The notes beneath the pieces are model-generated. The model saw nothing but the letters and a program-made list of their open reading frames with translations, searched no databases and was not told the DNA's origin. This document shows, in pieces, positions 17,378-61,854 of a DNA stretch of 64,000 nt. The stretch comes from a virus. The translations under genes were made by a program, and so were the position numbers. Within the stretch, counting starts at the first letter, position 1. Each line of letters starts with the position of its first letter. The stretch is from positions 62,001-126,000 of IMG/VR virus record IMGVR_UViG_3300036859_000816; one strand, written 5' to 3'.

Positions 17378-18358
17378 TCATGCAGCTAGAAACATCGACG
17401 AGGATTCGTTGGATTCAACGTGCACGTAGTCACTCGTCGTCGTCAGACTCGCGTGGCCGAGTGTGTGCTGAACTAGATGCGCTGGTGCTCCTCGCCGCAA
17501 TGCGTGGCTCGCGTGCGCATGACGCAGCCAGTGCGGTGATGGCCGGTGTTGCAGATGCGCCGCTGTTGCCGCCGCGCACACGATATTCCAGCCGTCAGAT
17601 TGATGCAGCTGCCGGCCGCGCACGCTCTCGAAGACGATCGACGACAGCCGGGTCTTCTGCAACAGCTCGAAGTCCTTGATCAAACTGATCGGCAACGGAA
17701 CGTGCCGCGTCTTGCCGCCCTTGCCGTGCAAGGTCACGCGCAATCGATCCGTTTCCATGTGCAGCTCCGACCACTTCATCGCGAGCGCTTCAGAGATGCG
17801 AGCGCCCGAGAGATACAGGAACCGCAGCAACGTGCGGTCGCGTCCGGGAGCGGCGGCTTGAATCAGCGCGTAAACCTCGTCCTGGCTCAGGATCCGCTCA
17901 GCGAGCTGATTCGGTCGCCGAGGCGGCTTGACAGCGGCGCCGACATTGAACACGAGGTACCCAGTCTCGTGGGCAAATGACAACAGGCTCTTGACCGCAG
18001 AGATGCGCCGCGCATGCGAGGATACGGCGCCGTGGTCCCGCAGGTGCCGCTGGAAGGCCGTCAGGTGCGCCACTTTGACGTCCCGTAGCGTCGTCGGCCG
18101 CGCAGGCAGCTCATCGCTCGGCCGGTCCGGCAAGGCCGCCAGAAAGGCGCGGAACAGCTCCAGGTCGCCGCGGTACGCCCGCTGCGTTTGCACGCTGTCA
18201 TACCGGTCGAGCCACAGGATGATGAGCTCGGCGTCGGAGCCGGCTCCGGAGTAGTCCGGACGCTCGAAGACCTCGGTTGACGGCGGTGGCGCGCGGCGCA
18301 AGCCGAACGCGTCGAGCATACCAAGGACTTCGTTAATGGGTTGTCGCGACTCCGGCAT
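17378..18358 (-). CDS. Tyrosine recombinase / integrase (XerC/D-like)
   Basis: From MPESRQPINEVLG the protein is 326 residues, normal for the family. An N-terminal SAM-like core-binding domain (about residues 40-145) is followed by the catalytic domain with Arg in LYLSGARISEAL, Lys in GKGGKTR, His-x-x-Arg in SPHWLRHAHASHAL, His in HTLGHAS and the Tyr nucleophile in SDYVHV. All six active-site residues are present. It may integrate the element or resolve multimers. No attachment site could be identified. Confidence 0.9.
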   Translation of the reverse strand: MPESRQPINEVLGMLDAFGLRRAPPPSTEVFERPDYSGAGSDAELIILWLDRYDSVQTQRAYRGDLELFRAFLAALPDRPSDELPARPTTLRDVKVAHLTAFQRHLRDHGAVSSHARRISAVKSLLSFAHETGYLVFNVGAAVKPPRRPNQLAERILSQDEVYALIQAAAPGRDRTLLRFLYLSGARISEALAMKWSELHMETDRLRVTLHGKGGKTRHVPLPISLIKDFELLQKTRLSSIVFESVRGRQLHQSDGWNIVCAAATAAHLQHRPSPHWLRHAHASHALRRGAPAHLVQHTLGHASLTTTSDYVHVESNESSSMFLAA

Positions 18359-18359
18359 G

Positions 18360-18689
18360 TTACTGCAACCGTCCGCGCTGCTGTTCACGGTACCGGACCA
18401 TGGCTTCATCGAAAGCTTCCGGATTCTGCAGATACGCGATGCCGCGCCAGTCTTGCGCAAGGTCTTGCCATTTCTTGCACTGCTCTTCCCAGAACTGGGC
18501 ACTTTTTCGCCACGTGCGTTCGGTGTCCCAGCGATGAAGCGCTGCTGCAGCGCAGAAGCCTGCTGCCAAACCGGAGGCGCTCGCCGTTAGAACGGAATGA
18601 TACCAGACGGCATTCCATATGAGGCACGCCAGGTTCGTCACGGCCAAAGCAATGTCTAACCACATCAACTTCCGGAAGGGATCCTTCAC
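18360..18689 (-). CDS. Two-helix membrane protein
   Basis: The start is taken as the GTG overlapping the preceding stop (GTGA). Two transmembrane helices read WLDIALAVTNLACLIWNAVWY and VLTASASGLAAGFCAAAAL, followed by a charged, Trp/Gln-rich cytoplasmic helix. A holin or a membrane-linked accessory protein is possible; nothing decides between them. Confidence 0.5.
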   Translation of the reverse strand: MKDPFRKLMWLDIALAVTNLACLIWNAVWYHSVLTASASGLAAGFCAAAALHRWDTERTWRKSAQFWEEQCKKWQDLAQDWRGIAYLQNPEAFDEAMVRYREQQRGRLQ

Positions 18690-24592: not shown

Positions 24593-24620
24593 CTGCCGCG
24601 CGGCGCGAGTCACGCGGCAG
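24593..24620 (+). terminator. Hairpin, possible terminator or mRNA-stabilising stem
   Basis: CTGCCGCG and CGCGGCAG form a perfect 8-bp stem around a 12-base loop just after a stop codon. No U-tract follows, so Rho-independent termination is uncertain. Confidence 0.4.
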
Positions 24621-24649
24621 ACGCGGGCGCCAGCCCGAGAAAGTCGCAA

Positions 24650-24826
24650 ATGATGCCCATCGAAGAGCTGGTCGAGTTTTTGGCGTCACAAGACGATGCA
24701 GTCATCTGGCGCAACGGAACCGAACTTCGCACGGGCAACGGTTTGATCTACATTCGGTCGTGCCAAGGTCGCGAGCTACGCGGCGATAGCTGGCAACCGC
24801 GGTACACGTGGCATCGACTCTATTAG
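24650..24826 (+). CDS. 58-residue hypothetical protein
   Basis: Starting MMPIEELVEFLASQDDAVIW, the frame ends ten bases before the next start, and that next gene's TAGGAGC ribosome site includes this stop. Composition and position support a real short gene. No function known. Confidence 0.5.
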   Translation: MMPIEELVEFLASQDDAVIWRNGTELRTGNGLIYIRSCQGRELRGDSWQPRYTWHRLY

Positions 24827-24835
24827 GAGCAATCA

Positions 24836-25420
24836 ATGGCACAGCTGAAACCCGCACAATATCTAGCTCGCGATCTTGCCGAAGCGCTCGGCGATGACTG
24901 GCACTGGAAAAAACCAGACGAGGACCATGTGACGGGTTTCATCGACGGTCCGGACGGACGCCAGCTCGCCGTACACGTCCAGACGTACGGCGCTCAAGAG
25001 GGTAAGAAGGGTGAGATCAGTGGCCTGCTACCGCAGCGCGACGCAAAGGGCGACTACTTCAGCACCAGTATCGAACGGCCATCGATCGGCTTCACCGTCG
25101 CTCGTGGCGTGGACGCTATCGCTCGCGACGTACAGCGACGCTTGCTGCCGGCGTACGAGACGGCTTTTCAGCGAACGCAGGAAGCTCTGGCGCGGCGTAA
25201 CGAGTACCTCGCGGAGACGACGGACAGCATTGCCGGCATACTCGAGGCCGTTCCCGGGCTCGAGTGGCGGCGCCATCGCGAGGAATCGAGCGCATCCTTC
25301 GACCTAGAGGGCGCGGGCTGGGGCGATATCAAGGCACACGGCGACAGCGTTTCGCTGGAAGTTCGCAGCTTGAGCCGTGAGCAGGTTATCCGGATGTTGC
25401 AAGCCCTCAGCGAAGGCTGA
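24836..25420 (+). CDS. Hypothetical protein, 194 residues
   Basis: Preceded by a good ribosome site, GGAGC. It has an N-terminal alpha/beta segment, a central Arg/Glu helix (RRNEYLAETTDSIAGILEAV) and a beta-rich end. I recognise no domain. Confidence 0.55.
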   Translation: MAQLKPAQYLARDLAEALGDDWHWKKPDEDHVTGFIDGPDGRQLAVHVQTYGAQEGKKGEISGLLPQRDAKGDYFSTSIERPSIGFTVARGVDAIARDVQRRLLPAYETAFQRTQEALARRNEYLAETTDSIAGILEAVPGLEWRRHREESSASFDLEGAGWGDIKAHGDSVSLEVRSLSREQVIRMLQALSEG

Positions 25421-25442
25421 AACACAATGAGAGGAAGACAAA

Positions 25443-25610
25443 GTGGCGAAATCTAAATGCGACCAATGCGGAGAAATCGTTGACGATATCGATGCGGGCT
25501 TTTCTCCCGGACTCCACGAGATGGCTCACGACTGTGGCGGTACGTGGCAGGTAGAAGAATCAGGCCAAGACGAACTGGTGCGCGCTGAAGAAAATGTCCG
25601 CGCATGCTGA
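25443..25610 (+). CDS. 55-residue zinc-binding protein, GTG start
   Basis: The frame starts at a GTG preceded by GAGAGGAA and reads VAKSKCDQCGEIVDDIDAGF, with a later His-x3-His and Cys that can complete a zinc site (HEMAHDCGG). Its stop overlaps the next ATG by seven bases. Confidence 0.55.
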   Translation: MAKSKCDQCGEIVDDIDAGFSPGLHEMAHDCGGTWQVEESGQDELVRAEENVRAC

Positions 25611-25807
25611 CCAAAGAAGATCAGGAACTGTTGCACAAGGGGGCCAACGATCTGATCGCGCTCGTCAATGAGTTGCGTGACATGAACCCGCGGCTGCCGG
25701 AACGAACGCAGGAGCTCATCGAAAGCGTGCTCTTGAGCAGCGGCTTCGCGCATGGTCTGGTGTATCGTTTGGACCGACAACTTCGCGAGCAGCAAGGAGA
25801 GAGTTAG
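25604..25807 (+). CDS. Small helical protein
   Basis: A 67-residue, fully helical, charged protein (MLTKEDQELLHKGANDLIAL). It is coupled to the preceding gene, and its stop forms part of the outer stem of the structured RNA downstream. No motif. Confidence 0.5.
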   Translation: MLTKEDQELLHKGANDLIALVNELRDMNPRLPERTQELIESVLLSSGFAHGLVYRLDRQLREQQGES

Positions 25808-25945
25808 CTCGACATGATCCAAGTGGTGTCGAAACGGGCACGGGATGTACAAGGCGAGATGTAGGCTCCGTGTACGTTGGTAAATAAGACGGCGATGCCG
25901 CAAGTCCAACGGTCGGCCTACGCGACACTCGAGCTAACTTTTTCC
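25803..25945 (+). ncRNA. Candidate structured RNA closed by a 10-bp stem and followed by a U-run
   Basis: GTTAGCTCGA (25803-25812) pairs perfectly with TCGAGCTAAC (25929-25938), which is followed by TTTTT. Directly stacked inside is GTGTCG (25826-25831) with CGACAC (25923-25928). Further local stems are GTACA/TGTAC (25847-25851/25871-25875), GTTGG/CCAAC (25876-25880/25906-25910) and CGGC/GCCG (25890-25893/25897-25900). The nested, mutually compatible helices fit a folded RNA of about 136 nt ending in an intrinsic terminator. No known class was recognised. It could be a small RNA or a leader element of the SLOG-like gene that follows. Confidence 0.5.
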
Positions 25946-25968
25946 TTCCTGCTGACGAGACGTGCGTA

Positions 25969-26466
25969 ATGATCTCAGTTGTCTCTGGAATCCGCGAACT
26001 GCACCAGAGCAGCTATGCCGACGTCGAGCGTGCGATGGCCGTTGAAATGGAGCGTGCTAGCGACGCTGCCAGAAATAATTCACCCAGCACGCTCCGCTTC
26101 GGAGGCGCCATCGGCGTCGATTCGGTTGCACTGCAAGCTGCACGTCAGCTACGTCGACCGCGTCATCGGGTCATCTTCGTTGTCATCGTACCCGGCAAAC
26201 TGACCGAACAACCGAAGTTCGCTTATCAGGTCGCGTTGCGCTGTGCCGATAACATCATCGAGCTCGAGTTTCCCCGCGGCGCCAAGTGGGCATATCTTCG
26301 GCGCAATGACCGACTGCTCGATGGCGCACAACGCCTCGTCGCTTTCACTGATGGACGCGCAACGGGCGGTACCGCGTACACGATCAAGCGCGCTCAGAAA
26401 TCAGGTATTGACGTAGAGCTTGTAACGGTGCGTTCATTCTTGCACCGAGTAGACCTGACAAAATGA
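25969..26466 (+). CDS. SLOG/DprA-like Rossmann-fold protein
   Basis: The 165-residue protein has LRFGGAIGVDSVALQAA (residues 43-59), the GGxxGxD-x3-A pattern of SLOG, DprA and DUF2493 proteins, then RRNDRLLDGAQRLVAFTDGR and ATGGTAYTIKRAQKSGIDVE, which match the second conserved block (TGGT followed by a helix). Such domains bind nucleotides, nucleotide-derived signals or DNA ends. In a phage it may process or sense a nucleotide ligand. It lies directly downstream of the structured RNA. Confidence 0.7.
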   Translation: MISVVSGIRELHQSSYADVERAMAVEMERASDAARNNSPSTLRFGGAIGVDSVALQAARQLRRPRHRVIFVVIVPGKLTEQPKFAYQVALRCADNIIELEFPRGAKWAYLRRNDRLLDGAQRLVAFTDGRATGGTAYTIKRAQKSGIDVELVTVRSFLHRVDLTK

Positions 26467-26525
26467 CCATGGCTGGTCACGTCGATCTCGGATACTCCAA
26501 GGGCATCACGAAACGGAGTCGGTCC

Positions 26526-27017
26526 ATGAGGCAATCGCTGGTTGCGTTTATTGCTTCCACACTTTTCGCGCTCGTCGCGTGCAGTGCTGAAGGTGGCGTC
26601 GAATCCGAAACAATCCAATCTCAGGGTGAAACGATGCTCACAAAAGGTCAGATGATCGTCTACGTTCCCGGAATTCTCGTTCCGCAAGAGGAGCTCATTA
26701 GCCTCGGTCCGCCCGAGGGACTGGGCGGCGTCATTTTGGAAGGCTCCGCAGAGCTGTCCGGACGGATCGACTATCAGGCGGGCGCGCTGACAGCGGGAAT
26801 CTTTCAGGCCAAGTCGGACAAGTTGAAGGTCAAAATTACGATGCCGTTCACCGAGCACGGCACCATCATCAATGGCGTATTCCGAATGACCGACGAAACT
26901 GGTCAAACGCACGTTTTCAAGCCGGGCGACAGCTACCTGCTCAAGCAGGGCACAGTCGTGGTTTGGGACCAATTCAGTCCGATCCTGCAGAAGTCGTTTT
27001 TCAACGTCGTCGAGTAG
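26526..27017 (+). CDS. Lipoprotein with cupin domain
   Basis: From MRQSLVAFIASTLFALVACS the protein has a lipoprotein signal with lipobox LVAC. After a short linker it has one cupin domain like the EutQ/DUF861 group, with ITMPFTEHGTIINGVFRMTD and FKPGDSYLLKQGTVVVW as the two barrel motifs. An outer-membrane or periplasmic role is likely. The in-frame ATG at 26463 would hide the signal peptide, so 26526 is chosen. Confidence 0.7.
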   Translation: MRQSLVAFIASTLFALVACSAEGGVESETIQSQGETMLTKGQMIVYVPGILVPQEELISLGPPEGLGGVILEGSAELSGRIDYQAGALTAGIFQAKSDKLKVKITMPFTEHGTIINGVFRMTDETGQTHVFKPGDSYLLKQGTVVVWDQFSPILQKSFFNVVE

Positions 27018-27038
27018 TTCTGGTATGCTTCGCGGGCA

Positions 27039-27332
27039 ATGCCCCAGCCCGCAAGCGTTCCGATTGATCTGCAAGCTTCGGTGATCGAGCTCGGATCAGG
27101 CTCGTACATTCTGCTGAGTTTCTTTCGCGACGCCTCAGCAGAGTCGGCGGTGCTGACGGATGCGGAGCGCCAGGTGGCGCTTGCGATATTGGCGGGACGC
27201 TCGAATGCCGAGATTGCCCGCATCCGTGGCACGTCGCCGCGCACGATAGCCAATCAAGTAGCGCACATTTTTCGCAAGCTCGGCGTGAAGTCGCGCTCCG
27301 AGTTTGTTGCGCTGAGGCAGTGTCCTCTCTAG
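27039..27332 (+). CDS. LuxR-type HTH regulator, short
   Basis: The 97-residue protein ends in a LuxR-type HTH: LTDAERQVALAILAGRSNAE then IARIRGTSPRTIANQVAHIF. The N terminus is too short for a sensor domain. Its stop overlaps the start of a second LuxR-family gene, so the two form an operon and might interact. Confidence 0.8.
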   Translation: MPQPASVPIDLQASVIELGSGSYILLSFFRDASAESAVLTDAERQVALAILAGRSNAEIARIRGTSPRTIANQVAHIFRKLGVKSRSEFVALRQCPL

Positions 27333-28228
27333 ATCGCCTTCTGCACGCGCTACGGGCGGCGCGCACGATCAACGAAGCGAGCCTTCGGGTCATGGATCTC
27401 GCGTTAGCGCCTCTGCGCGCTGACTCAATCGGGATCTACATCTACGAACCGAAGCTCCAAAGGCCCGCGGAGATTTACTTTCGCGGTGTGCCCGAACGCT
27501 TCATCTTTGAGTACGAACAGCTGGCAAGGGATCACGATCCATTGCTGGAGCGTGTGTTGCAGACACGCGCGGCCGTGCGTGATGAAGACGTGTATCCCGG
27601 TGAAGCCTGGAATCGATCGTTCTTGTACCGCGAATTTGTCCCGCGTTATCGCACGAAACATGTGGTTGCGGCTCCAATCGTTGTCGGCAACGAAGTAGTT
27701 GGTACGCTACACATCGGTCGATTCTTCGATGAAGGTCGCTTTACGACGCGGGACAAAGAGACAGCCACCGAAATATGCCGCGCTCTAGCGAAGCAATGCG
27801 GCACGGAAAGTTCTGCATACGAGTCGGATCCCGCTCCGCGTTTACATGCCGACCGAGCTCGACTGCGGACGCAGTTGGAAGCCATTGAACGAACTGGTAA
27901 GGCGTTGCCCGAAGACCAAACTGCAATGATTTTTGACATGCTTAAGCACAATCAGATCGCACCGATTGATTGCCTGGACAACGGTGAGCGGCGCTACGTT
28001 CTCTTGCCGCGTTTTACAAACAAGAATCAGTTGCCCGTTTCGCTGACTGCGCGCGAACGCGCGGTTCTTCGATATGTTGTCCGAGGTGAAAGCAACAAAG
28101 CGATTGCGTCGGAGCTACACTGCTCCGTGAGCGCCGTGGGCAACAAAGTCAGTTCTATGATGCACAAGTTCGGCGTTTCTTCGCGCATCCAATTGATTGT
28201 GCTCGCAGCTGCCCACGCTAGCGATTGA
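27320..28228 (+). CDS. LuxR-type regulator with GAF-like sensor domain
   Basis: Residues about 20-160 resemble a GAF domain (VVAAPIVVGNEVVGTLHIGR is the typical core). The C terminus is a LuxR HTH: LTARERAVLRYVVRGESNKA then IASELHCSVSAVGNKVSSMM. It would bind DNA when a small ligand or signal is sensed. The pair of LuxR genes has bacterial rather than phage style and is probably cargo. The 3' end overlaps the convergent gene by 11 bases. Confidence 0.8.
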   Translation: MSSLDRLLHALRAARTINEASLRVMDLALAPLRADSIGIYIYEPKLQRPAEIYFRGVPERFIFEYEQLARDHDPLLERVLQTRAAVRDEDVYPGEAWNRSFLYREFVPRYRTKHVVAAPIVVGNEVVGTLHIGRFFDEGRFTTRDKETATEICRALAKQCGTESSAYESDPAPRLHADRARLRTQLEAIERTGKALPEDQTAMIFDMLKHNQIAPIDCLDNGERRYVLLPRFTNKNQLPVSLTARERAVLRYVVRGESNKAIASELHCSVSAVGNKVSSMMHKFGVSSRIQLIVLAAAHASD

Positions 28229-35711: not shown

Positions 35712-36298
35712 GTCTCAGGCCGTTGAGGCAGCCATCCAACAACTGGCGTCACCGGTCTCAACTACAAGGCCGTTGAGCAGGCGTTGCGATCTGAGCGCTG
35801 CCGGTCTTAGCGCGGCGTGCTTCGGCGGTCTCAACTACAAGGCCGTTGAGCGGGCGTTGCGATAGCGGGGCCGACCAGCGCAAAGTCGCCTTGTTCAACC
35901 GTCTCAACTACAAGGCCGTTGAGCAGGCATTGCGATTGGAGCCTTGCGAATACACTCTTTCGCGATGCGAAGCTGGTCTCAACTACAAGGCCGTTGAGCA
36001 GGCTTTGCGATTTTCTTGCATGGAAGTACCTCGCGCCATTCACCCAGGTCTCAACTACAAGGCCGTTGAGCAGGCTTTGCGATCTTGGACTTGAAGCGGT
36101 GGCAGACCAAGCTGCGGTTGGTCTCAACTACAAGGCCGTTGAGCAGGCTTTGCGATCACTCCTCCTCGTCCTCGAGGTCCTCGTCATCGTCGTCTCAACT
36201 ACAAGGCCGTTGAGCAGGCTTTGCGATCGCGCGCGGAAGTCGCGACGTTGCTGCGCTGCAGCGTCTCAACTACAAGGCCGTTGAGCAGGCTTTGCGAT
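35712..36298 (-). CRISPR. CRISPR array A: 8 repeats of 36 bp plus one degenerate repeat
   Basis: Repeats begin (on +) at 35755, 35828, 35901, 35976, 36048, 36121, 36192 and 36263. They start GTCTCAACTACAAGGCC and end GCNTTGCGAT. Spacers are 37, 37, 39, 36, 37, 35 and 35 bases. A decayed copy (GTCTCAGGCCGTTGAGG) lies at 35712. In the - strand RNA the repeat forms stem CUCAAC/GUUGAG with a 9-nt loop followed by AC and then the spacer, the layout of type V guides. Base 29 of the repeat runs G, G, A, then T in the last five copies, which with the decayed left end puts the growing end on the right. Confidence 0.95.
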
Positions 36299-36478
36299 AG
36301 ATTGTCAGAGATCGTTGTGGATTCGCGGACTTGTTGTCCGATTTGCGAGCGGTGCCGCACATGACGCGGTTGGTCGTTCCGCGCCACCATCAACCTAACT
36401 CACTACTCACCGACAATCGAGCCTTATTTGGCTCATGCGAGCACCTACGGAGCATCCGTCGCCACCGGACCGCTCGAA
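36299..36478. other. Inter-array region, possible leader of array A
   Basis: These 180 bases separate the growing end of array A from the lysozyme-like gene. They hold no convincing gene. A GAGCC-TTATTT-GGCTC hairpin lies near 36420, and two GATTGTC-type heptamers lie near the two ends. If array A has its own promoter on the - strand, it should be here, but no clear -10/-35 pair is visible. Confidence 0.4.
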
Positions 36479-37162
36479 ATGTTTGGCAGACCCGGGTTAT
36501 GCTCCGTGCGTATGGCCGATTGGGTCACCAACAGCTGTGGCGGCACGCGCTGGCGCACATTGCCCAACGGGCTCATTGAAGTTGAGGGCGAGGGCACGCC
36601 GGCCTATGCACCGACGTCTGCCGAATTCGCGAATCTCCAGCGTACCTGGACTAATTGGCAGGGCTTGTTCCGTTCGGCGTCGCGACAGTACGGCGTACCG
36701 GTCTCGTGGGTCGTCGCTATTGCCACGAACGAAACCGGTCCATGGTCAAAAGATCCTGCCGGTCAAGCGAGCATTATCTCGTTCGACCAGGGCGTCGGCA
36801 TCATGCAGATCACGAAGTATCCCGGCACGACCGTCGAACAGATGCTCGTGCCGGCGCAGAACATTGCGACGGGAGCGAGCATCCTGCGCAAGCACAGTGA
36901 TCGATACGGCGGCGAGTTGCCGTATGTCGCCGCTGCGTACAATGCCGGCGGCGTCTACTGTAGTCCCGGCAACAATGAGTGGAACTTTCGCACGACGGGT
37001 AACTATCCGCGCCGCGCAGTGCAGTACAACAATGCCGCGCTCATGTACCTGCCGTTGGGCGCTACGTTCGCATCAATGCTCGGTTGGTCATTCGCTGGAG
37101 CAATTGTTGCGGGCGTGGGCTGGTTTGGTCTGCGATGGTGGCGACAACTACAAGGCCGTTGA
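36479..37162 (+). CDS. Lytic-transglycosylase-like lysozyme with C-terminal membrane anchor
   Basis: The 227-residue protein has an SLT/lysozyme-like core. The catalytic Glu is in SWVVAIATNETGPW, followed by GVGIMQITKYPGTT and PAQNIATGASILRKHSDRYG then LPYVAAAYNAGG, the usual order for this fold. One helix (FAGAIVAGVGWFGL) and a short basic tail end it. The last codons and the stop lie inside a CRISPR repeat (TGA of CCGTTGAGC). It is on the strand opposite to the effector and is a virion or lysis gene set between the two arrays. Confidence 0.75.
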   Translation: MFGRPGLCSVRMADWVTNSCGGTRWRTLPNGLIEVEGEGTPAYAPTSAEFANLQRTWTNWQGLFRSASRQYGVPVSWVVAIATNETGPWSKDPAGQASIISFDQGVGIMQITKYPGTTVEQMLVPAQNIATGASILRKHSDRYGGELPYVAAAYNAGGVYCSPGNNEWNFRTTGNYPRRAVQYNNAALMYLPLGATFASMLGWSFAGAIVAGVGWFGLRWWRQLQGR

Positions 37163-38827
37163 GCGGGCGTTGCGATCCTGTCGTCCAAACTGAAATTACA
37201 GGTTATTGCACGTGGTCTCAACTACGAAGCCGTCGAGCGGGCGTTGCTATCTCTTGAACTCTGCGGCTTTGAGCAGCCAGTTGTCGTCTCAACTACAAAG
37301 CCGTCGAGCGGGCGTTGCGAGCTGATGCCATTGACGTTTGTCGTATCCTTATACGTGTCTCAACTACGAAGCCGTTGAGCAGGCGTTGCAATCGCACGCG
37401 CGCGGGACGCTTGGCGAACGAGCTGGTTGTCTCAACTACAAGGCCGTTGAGCAGGCGTTGCGATTCGCATGGTGACTCGTGCCCGACAGTTAAAGGGTTC
37501 GTCTCAACTACAAGGCCGTTGAGCAGGCGTTGCGATTCGAGGGTTTAGTCGATGCAACACCTGGCGTGGCGGTCTCAACTACAAGGCCGTTGAGCAGGCG
37601 TTGCGGTCTGGGTGGCGCGAGTTCAAGTGGTCTCAACTACAAGGCCATTGAGCGGGCGTTTGCGATAAGGACTTTATTTTCGACAATATCGAAGAAGCGA
37701 TTGTCTCAACTACGAAGCCGTTGAGCAGGCGTTGCGATACAGTGTGCAACCTGAAGCAGCGGTCTCAACTATAAGGCCGTTGAGCGGGCGTTGCGATAAC
37801 TGCAACGACGCAGTGGATACTCTCATGCAGTAGTCTCAACTACAAAGCCGTCGAGCAGGCGTTGCGATATGAGCGTCCACTTGCCGGTGCTGACTAACAG
37901 CCGCGCGTCTCAACTACAAGGCCGTTGAGCAGGCATTGCGATTCGTTGCAGCAACCGTGCAGCAATGCTGCACCAGGTGGTCTCAACTACGAAGCCGTCG
38001 AGCAGGCGTTGCGATTGGTGATTCAAATACCGCACATCCATGGTTTGGGTGTCTCAACTACAAGGCCGTCGAGCGGGCGTTGCGATCGAGTGGGCTGACT
38101 GCTCGCGATCGGACACTTCGATGTCTCAACTACGAAGCCGTTGAGCAGGCGTTGCGATTGGCGGACCAACTTTAGGGCGAGGACGTCCGATTCTGCGTCT
38201 CAACTACGAAGCCGTTGAGCAGGCGTTGCGTCAGGTAATCCTGGTCTCAACTACGAAGCCGTCGAGCGGGCGTTGCGATCTAGTTCGGAGCATCCACCGT
38301 CTCAACTACAAGGCCGTTGAGCAGGCATTGCGATGTTGGCAGGAGCGTGCTTCCACCCATGGCGTCTCAACTACGAAGCCGTCGAGCAGGCGTTGTCGAT
38401 GGCGCAAGCTTCGAGGGCCTGGTGCACGCAGTCGCCGTCTCAACTACAAGGCCGTTGAGCGGGCGTTGCGAATCCGGGTGCGTAAACACCCGAGACCCTT
38501 TGCCGAAACCTGTGTCTCAACTACAAGGCCGTCGAGCGGGCGTTGCGATGGCCGGAAATGAAGAGTCCACCTAGACCTAGAGTCGCGGTCTCAACTACAA
38601 AGCCGTCGAGCGGGCGTTGCGATAGATCATCGACGTGTCGGATGAACGGCGAGTGACAGTCTCAACTACGAAGCCGTCGAGCTGGCGTTGCGATCTTTTG
38701 CTTAGCCGACCGTCGAACCAGTTCAAACGTCTCAACTACGAAGCCGTCGAGCGGGCGTTGCGATATCGGCTCGCCGAAATCAGCAAAGGAAATACGTCTC
38801 AACTACGAAGCCGTTGAGCAGGCGTTG
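37141..38827 (-). CRISPR. CRISPR array B: about 25 repeats, mosaic, with irregular spacers
   Basis: Repeats begin (on +) at 37141 (partial), 37215, 37286, 37357, 37429, 37501, 37572, 37630, 37703, 37762, 37833, 37907, 37980, 38051, 38123, 38197, 38244, 38299, 38364, 38437, 38514, 38588, 38659, 38729 and 38796 (truncated). Most spacers are 34-41 bases, but several are only 22, 23, about 12, 19, 29 and 31. Repeats vary at positions 12, 14, 20 and 25 in mosaic combinations; two have a 1-base insertion. The T-to-C change at position 20 turns one A-U pair of the guide stem into G-U, so the hairpin is kept. The array lies 49 bases beyond the effector's stop, same direction. Confidence 0.95.
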
Positions 38828-38875
38828 ATGCGTCTTAAATTGTCAAAGATCGAGCGCGAGAAACGTCGGTTTCAT

Positions 38876-40933
38876 TCATTCTACATCGTTCGCATCATTT
38901 TCCAAGTCCTCACGGCGGGCACTTCCCGGCGAGCCGTTGGTGCCGAAGCGCGCAAAGTACCGATTCAGCATAACACGACAGGCATTCAAATCGCGGTCCC
39001 AGTTGTTGCCGCAGCCGGCGCAAACCTGCACGCGTTCTTCAGGCTTCTCCCAGTCCTTATTTACATAACTACAGATGTGACATTCTTGCGTCGAACTTTC
39101 GCCCTCGGCTTTGCACGCTCGCGATCCGAACGCTTCAACAATGATGGAACGCAGTTCGCTTGGAGCGGCGATGGCTCGGACGCGATTCGTGAATTCGCTC
39201 TCCGGCTCCTCTTCGGGTTTGCATTTGGTCGCGAACTTTCGCAGATCAATATCATCGACGACGGCGACCGCATACTTGTCTGCTAACCGTCGAGCCCATT
39301 TGCGATACAAATCGTGACGATGCGCCAACGTACTGTCTCGCTGATGACTTTCCCATTGATAGAGGTGCTTGTTCTTGTGACGCCACCACTCTAGGTAAAC
39401 CAGTAACTGTTCGGTCTCGTCGGTAATGCCTTGGGATGCGGCCCAGTTCGTTATGTTTGCGTACGCATCGAATAGATCACGACGAGCCTTGAGCCGTCCG
39501 CTCTTCCAACTAGCCCACAGCCGGTTGACGACGTCGCGATCGGGAAACGCTTCCGATACCCAGCGGCCAACAAGGCGTGCGAGCTTGCCATGCTGGCGCC
39601 ACTTCATCATGTACTCCGTGTCTTTCTTCACCCAAGCCGGCACCGAATGCTTCTTCATGAAGTCGGCGAGATTCTTCCGTGCCCGCTCGAAGTGTTCATC
39701 AGCAAAGCCTTGAAGCCTGGAGCATTGTAGGAAACGTTCGCGTAACTCATAGGGCAACGCCAACTCCTGTTCATTGCCCTGATCATCGACGCAGTAGACC
39801 ACGCGAATACCGTGTGGCAAGAGCCGCCAACCAAAGTCGAAGGCTAAGGTTTTCGAGCCCGCCACCGCTGTTTCGTGGAATTGTCCGGATTCGAGAGTGA
39901 GCTGCAACTGGTAGCGCGTTTGCGTACCCACGCGGCTGATCTTGATCCAGGCCCACATCACCGCAGCATCGTCCGGTAAGGGTCGATGCATGAGCACGCG
40001 AAACTCTGCCCAAACCGGCTTACCTGCGTTCGATCCAATTCGGATCCGAACGGTGGTTTCCATGTGCCGCCGCCCTGGTCGATTCTTCTTCCAACCGAGC
40101 ACGATGGTCTTCTTTTTTTGCGTCTTACGGTATCGGACTACGGCTTCAACATCATGCGGAAATGGATCAATCTGGAGCATTTTGCTGCGGCCAGAGATGA
40201 TATCGGCTACAGGTTCGCGATGTAGTTGCACTCCGATGCGGCACGGATCGGTGTAATGACGATGGCGCGGATCCTTCTTGCTCTTTTTCGCCGCTTCGAA
40301 CGCCTGATCGACGAGCAAGTACGTTCCATTGTACAGCCCACTATCGGCGCGCGTACGTTTGATTTGTTCGGTCGTCTCCATTTCGATCTTGGTCTTTGCT
40401 TTCCAGAAGTCCGGCCAGTTCTCCTCCTGGAGCATCTGTGTCAAAACCTCGCGGCGCACCCGTTCCTTGACTCGCGGTCCGGTGCTGCCAGCTGCGTGAC
40501 AAGCGGCTTCAAAGCGTTGCTTAACTTCGTCATCTGCGGGACGAAGTATCTTGCTGATCGTTTGACGCGCGTCTTTGACGTCTTGCCAGGCCTGCTTGTG
40601 CTGCTCTTTTAGTTTGCGCACTGCTGCATTCAAATCAGCGTCGACCACCCGCTTGCGTTTAGCCTTGCGCTGGGATTGAATTTTCTCGCGTGTCTCTTCA
40701 AGCTCTCTGTCGACCGCTTCGTAGGCGAGCTCTAGCGTCTCGAAATTCGGGAACATGGCCGTGCGCAATTCCCGAAAGCGGCGGCGGCGCTCACGCTCGA
40801 TGTCGATGAGATTGTTGTAGTAGTTGTGTGCAGCCTGAATCTGCTCGTTAAATTCAGCAGCACCGGATAGGATCTGTGTGCGACAACGAAAGGGCCAGAT
40901 GCGAGAGGGAACGTTCGATGTTTTGCGTTTCAT
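38876..40933 (-). CDS. cas12m: Cas12m-like (type V-M, formerly V-U1/c2c4) CRISPR effector
   Basis: From MKRKTSNVPSRIWPFRCRTQ the protein is 685 residues. A helical, charged first half is followed by RHYTDPCRIGVQLHR and MHRPLPDDAAVMWAWIKISR, which I can align by memory with the Mycolicibacterium Cas12m2 sequence (RHHRFDGSGTIAVQLQR and VHRWLPADADITGAELVVTR). The C terminus holds split RuvC: LAFDFGWRLLPHG (Asp 366), AVAVVDDIDLRKF (Asp 560 where Cas12 nucleases have Glu), and NNWDRDLNACRVML (Asp 646). A target-nucleic-acid-binding zinc finger lies between (CHIC at 618, CAGC at 638). The FGWR signature, the VDD motif and the paired zinc ribbon favour Cas12m over Cas12j or TnpB. Known Cas12m binds DNA without strong cleavage. 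Size is slightly above the roughly 600 residues usual. Confidence 0.85.
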   Translation of the reverse strand: MKRKTSNVPSRIWPFRCRTQILSGAAEFNEQIQAAHNYYNNLIDIERERRRRFRELRTAMFPNFETLELAYEAVDRELEETREKIQSQRKAKRKRVVDADLNAAVRKLKEQHKQAWQDVKDARQTISKILRPADDEVKQRFEAACHAAGSTGPRVKERVRREVLTQMLQEENWPDFWKAKTKIEMETTEQIKRTRADSGLYNGTYLLVDQAFEAAKKSKKDPRHRHYTDPCRIGVQLHREPVADIISGRSKMLQIDPFPHDVEAVVRYRKTQKKKTIVLGWKKNRPGRRHMETTVRIRIGSNAGKPVWAEFRVLMHRPLPDDAAVMWAWIKISRVGTQTRYQLQLTLESGQFHETAVAGSKTLAFDFGWRLLPHGIRVVYCVDDQGNEQELALPYELRERFLQCSRLQGFADEHFERARKNLADFMKKHSVPAWVKKDTEYMMKWRQHGKLARLVGRWVSEAFPDRDVVNRLWASWKSGRLKARRDLFDAYANITNWAASQGITDETEQLLVYLEWWRHKNKHLYQWESHQRDSTLAHRHDLYRKWARRLADKYAVAVVDDIDLRKFATKCKPEEEPESEFTNRVRAIAAPSELRSIIVEAFGSRACKAEGESSTQECHICSYVNKDWEKPEERVQVCAGCGNNWDRDLNACRVMLNRYFARFGTNGSPGSARREDLENDANDVE

Positions 40934-40972
40934 GGCGTCGGTGTGGCTACAATGAGCCCACAACAACCCAGC

Positions 40973-40990
40973 CGTCAAATATTTTTGACG
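40973..40990 (-). promoter_or_regulatory. Palindrome overlapping a possible -35 box of the effector gene
   Basis: CGTCAAA-TATT-TTTGACG is a perfect 7-base inverted repeat 40 bases before the effector ATG. On the - strand its right arm supplies TTGACG, and 18 bases on lies CATTGT, a weak -10. A repressor bound here would cover the -35. It is unlike the TACCATGGTA sites. Confidence 0.45.
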
Positions 40991-41054
40991 ATCACGCAAC
41001 TTACTCGACTAATTGCCGATATTTGGCCGTACAACCGTGTCGGCACTGAGGCTC

Positions 41055-54025: not shown

Positions 54026-54997
<972 letters not shown>

Positions 54998-58411: not shown

Positions 58412-61854
<3,443 letters not shown>

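Follow-up and report, generated by a model that had tools for sequence, protein, structure and literature searches.

A long stem in the gap between a 67-aa open reading frame (ORF) and a SLOG-like gene of a phage genome is tentatively interpreted here as an intercistronic element of the plus-strand message, i.e. as a candidate RNase III processing site or barrier to decay. The gap is located in the window of 64 kb that was analysed, which is part of a virus record of 131,132 bases. The closing stem spans 25 positions of the plus strand (25788-25812/25929-25953) with 24 pairs and one C/C mismatch; from the inside to the outside it consists of 19 contiguous pairs including two G-U pairs, the mismatch and five further pairs. 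Its 5' arm (25788-25812; AGCAG C AAGGAGAGAGTTAGCTCGA) overlaps the final codons and the stop of the 67-aa ORF, its 3' arm (25929-25953; TCGAGCTAACTTTTTCCTT C CTGCT) includes a paired U-run, and the enclosed interior of 116 nt (25813-25928) is predicted to be multibranched. The two arms are exact inverted repeats at 22 of the 25 positions.

The preliminary description of this locus was based on a perfect 10-bp helix, and this pairing is indeed exact (25803-25812/25929-25938); it represents the inner part of the 25-position stem. Outwards, the helix continues with nine pairs, two of them G-U (A25802-T25939, G25801.T25940, A25800-T25941, G25799.T25942, A25798-T25943 and AAGG/CCTT at 25794-25797/25944-25947), followed by the C/C mismatch (25793/25948) and the five outermost pairs AGCAG/CTGCT (25788-25792/25949-25953), and extends to 25788/25953. 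The stem had been placed with its beginning at the stop codon of the upstream ORF. Its 5' arm does overlap this codon (TAG, 25805-25807), but the stem starts 17 nt earlier, inside the end of the ORF. The U-run that was thought to follow the stem is likewise present (25939-25943), but it is base-paired with AGAGA inside the 3' arm and provides no free terminator tail. The additional 6-bp stem GTGTCG/CGACAC exists as a pairing in the sequence (25826-25831/25923-25928), whereas these positions are paired differently in both the minimum-energy and the centroid fold. The pair probabilities of the 19-bp part range from 0.85 to 1.0 in contexts of 301, 517 and 758 nt.

The 186-nt segment around the complete stem (25780-25965) folds with -78.7 kcal/mol compared with -58.8 on average after shuffling (z -4.41), and none of 200 shuffles reached this stability. 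The 143-nt element as first described is a weak candidate in the same comparison (z -2.26): four of 200 shuffles fold equally well, and 3.5% of the 143-nt stretches in the window attain its z value. The excess stability originates from the outer stem, since the 116-nt interior alone has a z of -0.09 and 43% of its shuffles fold equally well. The inner helices are thus what a sequence of such composition offers anyway; the three that had been proposed are not supported by any excess over shuffles, and the interior is probably merely the loop of the stem. The clear excess of the extended outer stem over the shuffled controls makes a structured RNA segment plausible, but the proposed new RNA family is not supported. 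The minus strand folds less well (z -3.36) due to the two G-U pairs, which turn into A/C mismatches there, and the advantage of the plus strand fits an RNA transcribed in the same orientation as the neighbouring genes. In a 186-nt scan with Markov controls the overlapping segment at 25793 ranks fourth of 515, and the exact element obtains a z between -2.7 and -3.3, the mean over the window being -0.16 (sd 0.62).

Phage-type genes of the record encode a tyrosine integrase (17378-18502), an SNF2-type helicase, RecT, a DnaB-like helicase and DNA methyltransferases; no tRNA or tmRNA was found in the 64-kb window. The stem is embedded in a series of closely packed small ORFs on the plus strand (24836-25420, 25443-25610, 25604-25807, 25969-26466 and 26463-27017), whose spacing suggests a single polycistron. 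The start of the 67-aa ORF (25604-25807), for which no family match was found, overlaps the preceding 55-aa ORF (25443-25610). A gap of 161 nt separates it from the SLOG/YpsA-DprA-like gene of 165 aa (25969-26466), and translation of the stem interior reveals a putative mini-ORF of 16 codons on the plus strand (25814-25864; MIQVVSKRARDVQGEM) without homologue evidence. The SLOG-like gene starts 15 nt past the 3' arm and hence outside the stem, with a weak Shine-Dalgarno sequence. Its label is weakly but consistently supported by matches to phrog_289 (1.7e-8) and to phage SLOG relatives (best E 4e-9) and by sub-threshold DprA and YpsA matches in Pfam. A cupin-domain ORF (26463-27017) overlaps its end. 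A crude, greedy ORF map leaves about 7% of the genome uncovered as gaps and places a doubtful minus-strand ORF over the stem-bearing gap. Another strong fold is present at 24765-24876, where a long stem pairs the upstream gap with the first codons of ORF 24836-25420; the corresponding segment at 24801 (z -4.09) is the lowest of the 143-nt scan. Further downstream, collagen-like Gly-Pro-Thr repeat proteins, which are probably fibre proteins, are encoded at 54026-54997 and 60019-61854, with several glycosyltransferase-like ORFs in their vicinity.

A near-perfect helix of about two turns is the preferred substrate of RNase III, and in T7 early mRNA the enzyme cuts at hairpins between cistrons. 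The length of the present stem suits this enzyme: the helix is near-perfect over about 20 bp or more and lies in a gap of the presumed polycistron. According to the proposed mechanism, one long helix would close the 116-nt spacer between the two cistrons, the 67-aa ORF and the SLOG-like gene, and act in cis on the message, either by being cleaved by RNase III or by blocking exonucleases, so that the two halves of the message would have separate fates. Since the stop codon of the 67-aa ORF is located in the 5' arm, this arm would have to be opened by any ribosome that finishes the ORF, and folding and processing would consequently depend on the translation of this ORF. In Escherichia coli, RNase III sites are frequent between genes (PMC5371410).

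The main and serious rival to a processing site or decay barrier is chance, namely a lucky 24-pair stem without function that was picked from an ordinary intergenic gap by a 64-kb scan, and this is a real possibility. The window contains 19 perfect inverted repeats of at least 10 bp within 200 nt, where 17.4 +/- 3.6 are expected; such stems thus occur at chance number, and a 10-bp helix alone is unremarkable. The 25-position stem has an ungapped score of 51.5, which no other long-range stem of the 131-kb record reaches. An equally good stem is present anywhere in 14 of 359 randomised genomes (order-1 Markov, 131 kb, matched size), which corresponds to a genome-wide chance of about 4%, and a still smaller one for a stem placed between genes, on a simple ungapped score that was chosen after the stem had been seen. 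The second-best stem (51.0) is located within a coding ORF of the same phage. This near-equal stem is presumably a coincidence and leaves room for the same explanation of the intercistronic one. The ordinary stability of the interior and the lack of a detected homologue point in the same direction. Two observations argue against chance: the z value of the extended element, and the fact that the top-scoring stem of the record occupies a gap flanked by co-oriented ORFs instead of a coding region. Given the post hoc scoring and the runner-up in a coding ORF, the closing stem is probably, but not certainly, non-random.

It is unlikely that the stem terminates or attenuates transcription between the two cistrons, with the U-run serving as terminator tail. 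Such a function would explain the U-rich stretch UUUUUCCUU after the GC-containing inner part of the stem, and the stop codon in the 5' arm would permit an attenuator to be coupled to translation. In Rho-independent terminators, too, a stem adjoins U-rich sequence where an ORF ends, but the stem there is a compact GC-rich hairpin with an unpaired U-tract, whereas here the U-run is part of the stem, the 116-nt loop is far too long for an intrinsic terminator, and a simple terminator scan detected no plus-strand site in the gap.

Equally improbable is an element that functions at the DNA level, be it the inverted repeats at the ends of a small non-autonomous transposon or a palindrome for protein binding or recombination. 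The nearly exact inverted repeats around 116 bp would be in line with this explanation, but the arms are single copy and neither they nor the element recur in the 131-kb genome, the exact paired pattern of the inner arms was not found in IMG/VR or GTDB genomes, and a search of phage and plasmid records at blastn sensitivity retrieved no significant match. Without further copies and without a convincing target-site duplication in the flanks, the element does not qualify as a MITE or another terminal-inverted-repeat element. An integron attC site can be dismissed, because its orientation is the reverse of the GTT...AAC arrangement found here, and an operator pair of two inverted binding sites is not indicated, since the arm has about as many near-copies elsewhere as expected by chance.

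The preliminary description had favoured a small RNA or a ligand-sensing leader. That a new RNA of this kind controls the SLOG-like gene is distinctly improbable. The location upstream of a SLOG-type gene, whose family often binds nucleotide-like ligands, and the predicted multibranched interior are features shared with riboswitches and other structured leaders. However, excess stability is missing from exactly the part in which a ligand pocket would be expected, and an aptamer-like interior should be more stable than its shuffles. In addition, the stem does not include the SLOG start codon, and a simple sigma-70 scan of 24600-27400 detected no promoter-like site. In agreement with the initial impression that no known RNA family is recognisable, an Rfam search at gathering threshold identified no family in the 64 kb, and no conserved core is known; at lax thresholds only a 13-bit chance match to a hammerhead appeared (25946-25990). 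Relatives of the element were not retrieved either. An 18-mer of the interior has no match in IMG/VR. No homologue was confirmed in IMG/VR for the SLOG protein, the product of ORF 24836-25420 or the 67-aa protein, nor in GTDB genomes for the SLOG protein. A search for kin phages via DnaB and RecT yielded one contig (37% identity in DnaB) that lacks the element, and a crude energy scan revealed no comparable leader upstream of three distant phage SLOG relatives with about 30% identity. Least probable of all is a regulatory phage RNA of an undescribed kind, whose folding, and thereby the expression of the SLOG-type nucleotide-sensing gene, is controlled by translation of the 67-aa ORF as a leader that ends in the stem arm.

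The notable object of the window is a phage-borne type V-M (Cas12m) CRISPR locus at 35755-40999, 10 kb from the stem, rather than the stem itself. Its array comprises 33 variable 36-bp repeats of the GTCTCAACTACAAGGCCGTTGAGCAGGCGTTGCGAT type, and an interruption of 842 bp without recognisable repeats (36299-37140) separates two repeat blocks. Beside the repeats, a Cas12m-like protein of 707 aa is encoded on the minus strand (38876-40999); it matches Cas12m in the PDB (23vw, 1.9e-54) and Cas12u1 in PADLOC (2e-83), and no relative was confirmed in IMG/VR. Type V-M systems have been described as enriched in plasmids and also occur in some prophages (PMC11656645). The last spacer (38765-38795), which adjoins the cas12m stop codon, matches the MT-A70 methyltransferase-like gene of the phage itself (L003:4324-5517) at 29 of 31 positions, the first 25 of them perfectly. 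Its target (L003:4961-4991, corresponding to record positions 24961-24991) is flanked 5' by TTG, in accordance with the TTN PAM of Cas12m2 (PMC10442227). This spacer could be a guide for self-regulation or be aimed at related phages; none of the other spacers of 28-59 nt matches the record at up to eight mismatches. The stem itself is not a tracrRNA candidate for this Cas12m, as it has no run of at least 9 nt complementary to the repeat on either strand, and Cas12m2 uses a single crRNA (PMC10442227).

If the intercistronic stem is real, it would be one more mRNA stem in a phage operon, a candidate processing site of an expected type. The main value of the analysis is the corrected description of the element (25788-25953), which carries little weight as evidence for a new class of riboswitches or small RNAs. 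Among known systems, retron ncRNAs also possess long inverted repeats (a1/a2) that close an RNA of 100-200 nt, here likewise next to a SLOG-like gene, but no reverse transcriptase (RVT_1, E<=1) was found in the 131-kb record, which may be a fragment, and a retron or DGR RNA is accordingly not indicated. In comparison with intercistronic RNase III stems, which close a short hairpin loop, the present helix, a candidate for cleavage, closes a loop of 116 nt. With the R sites of T7 early mRNA and the intergenic sites of E. coli it shares a near-perfect helix of about two turns between co-oriented genes.
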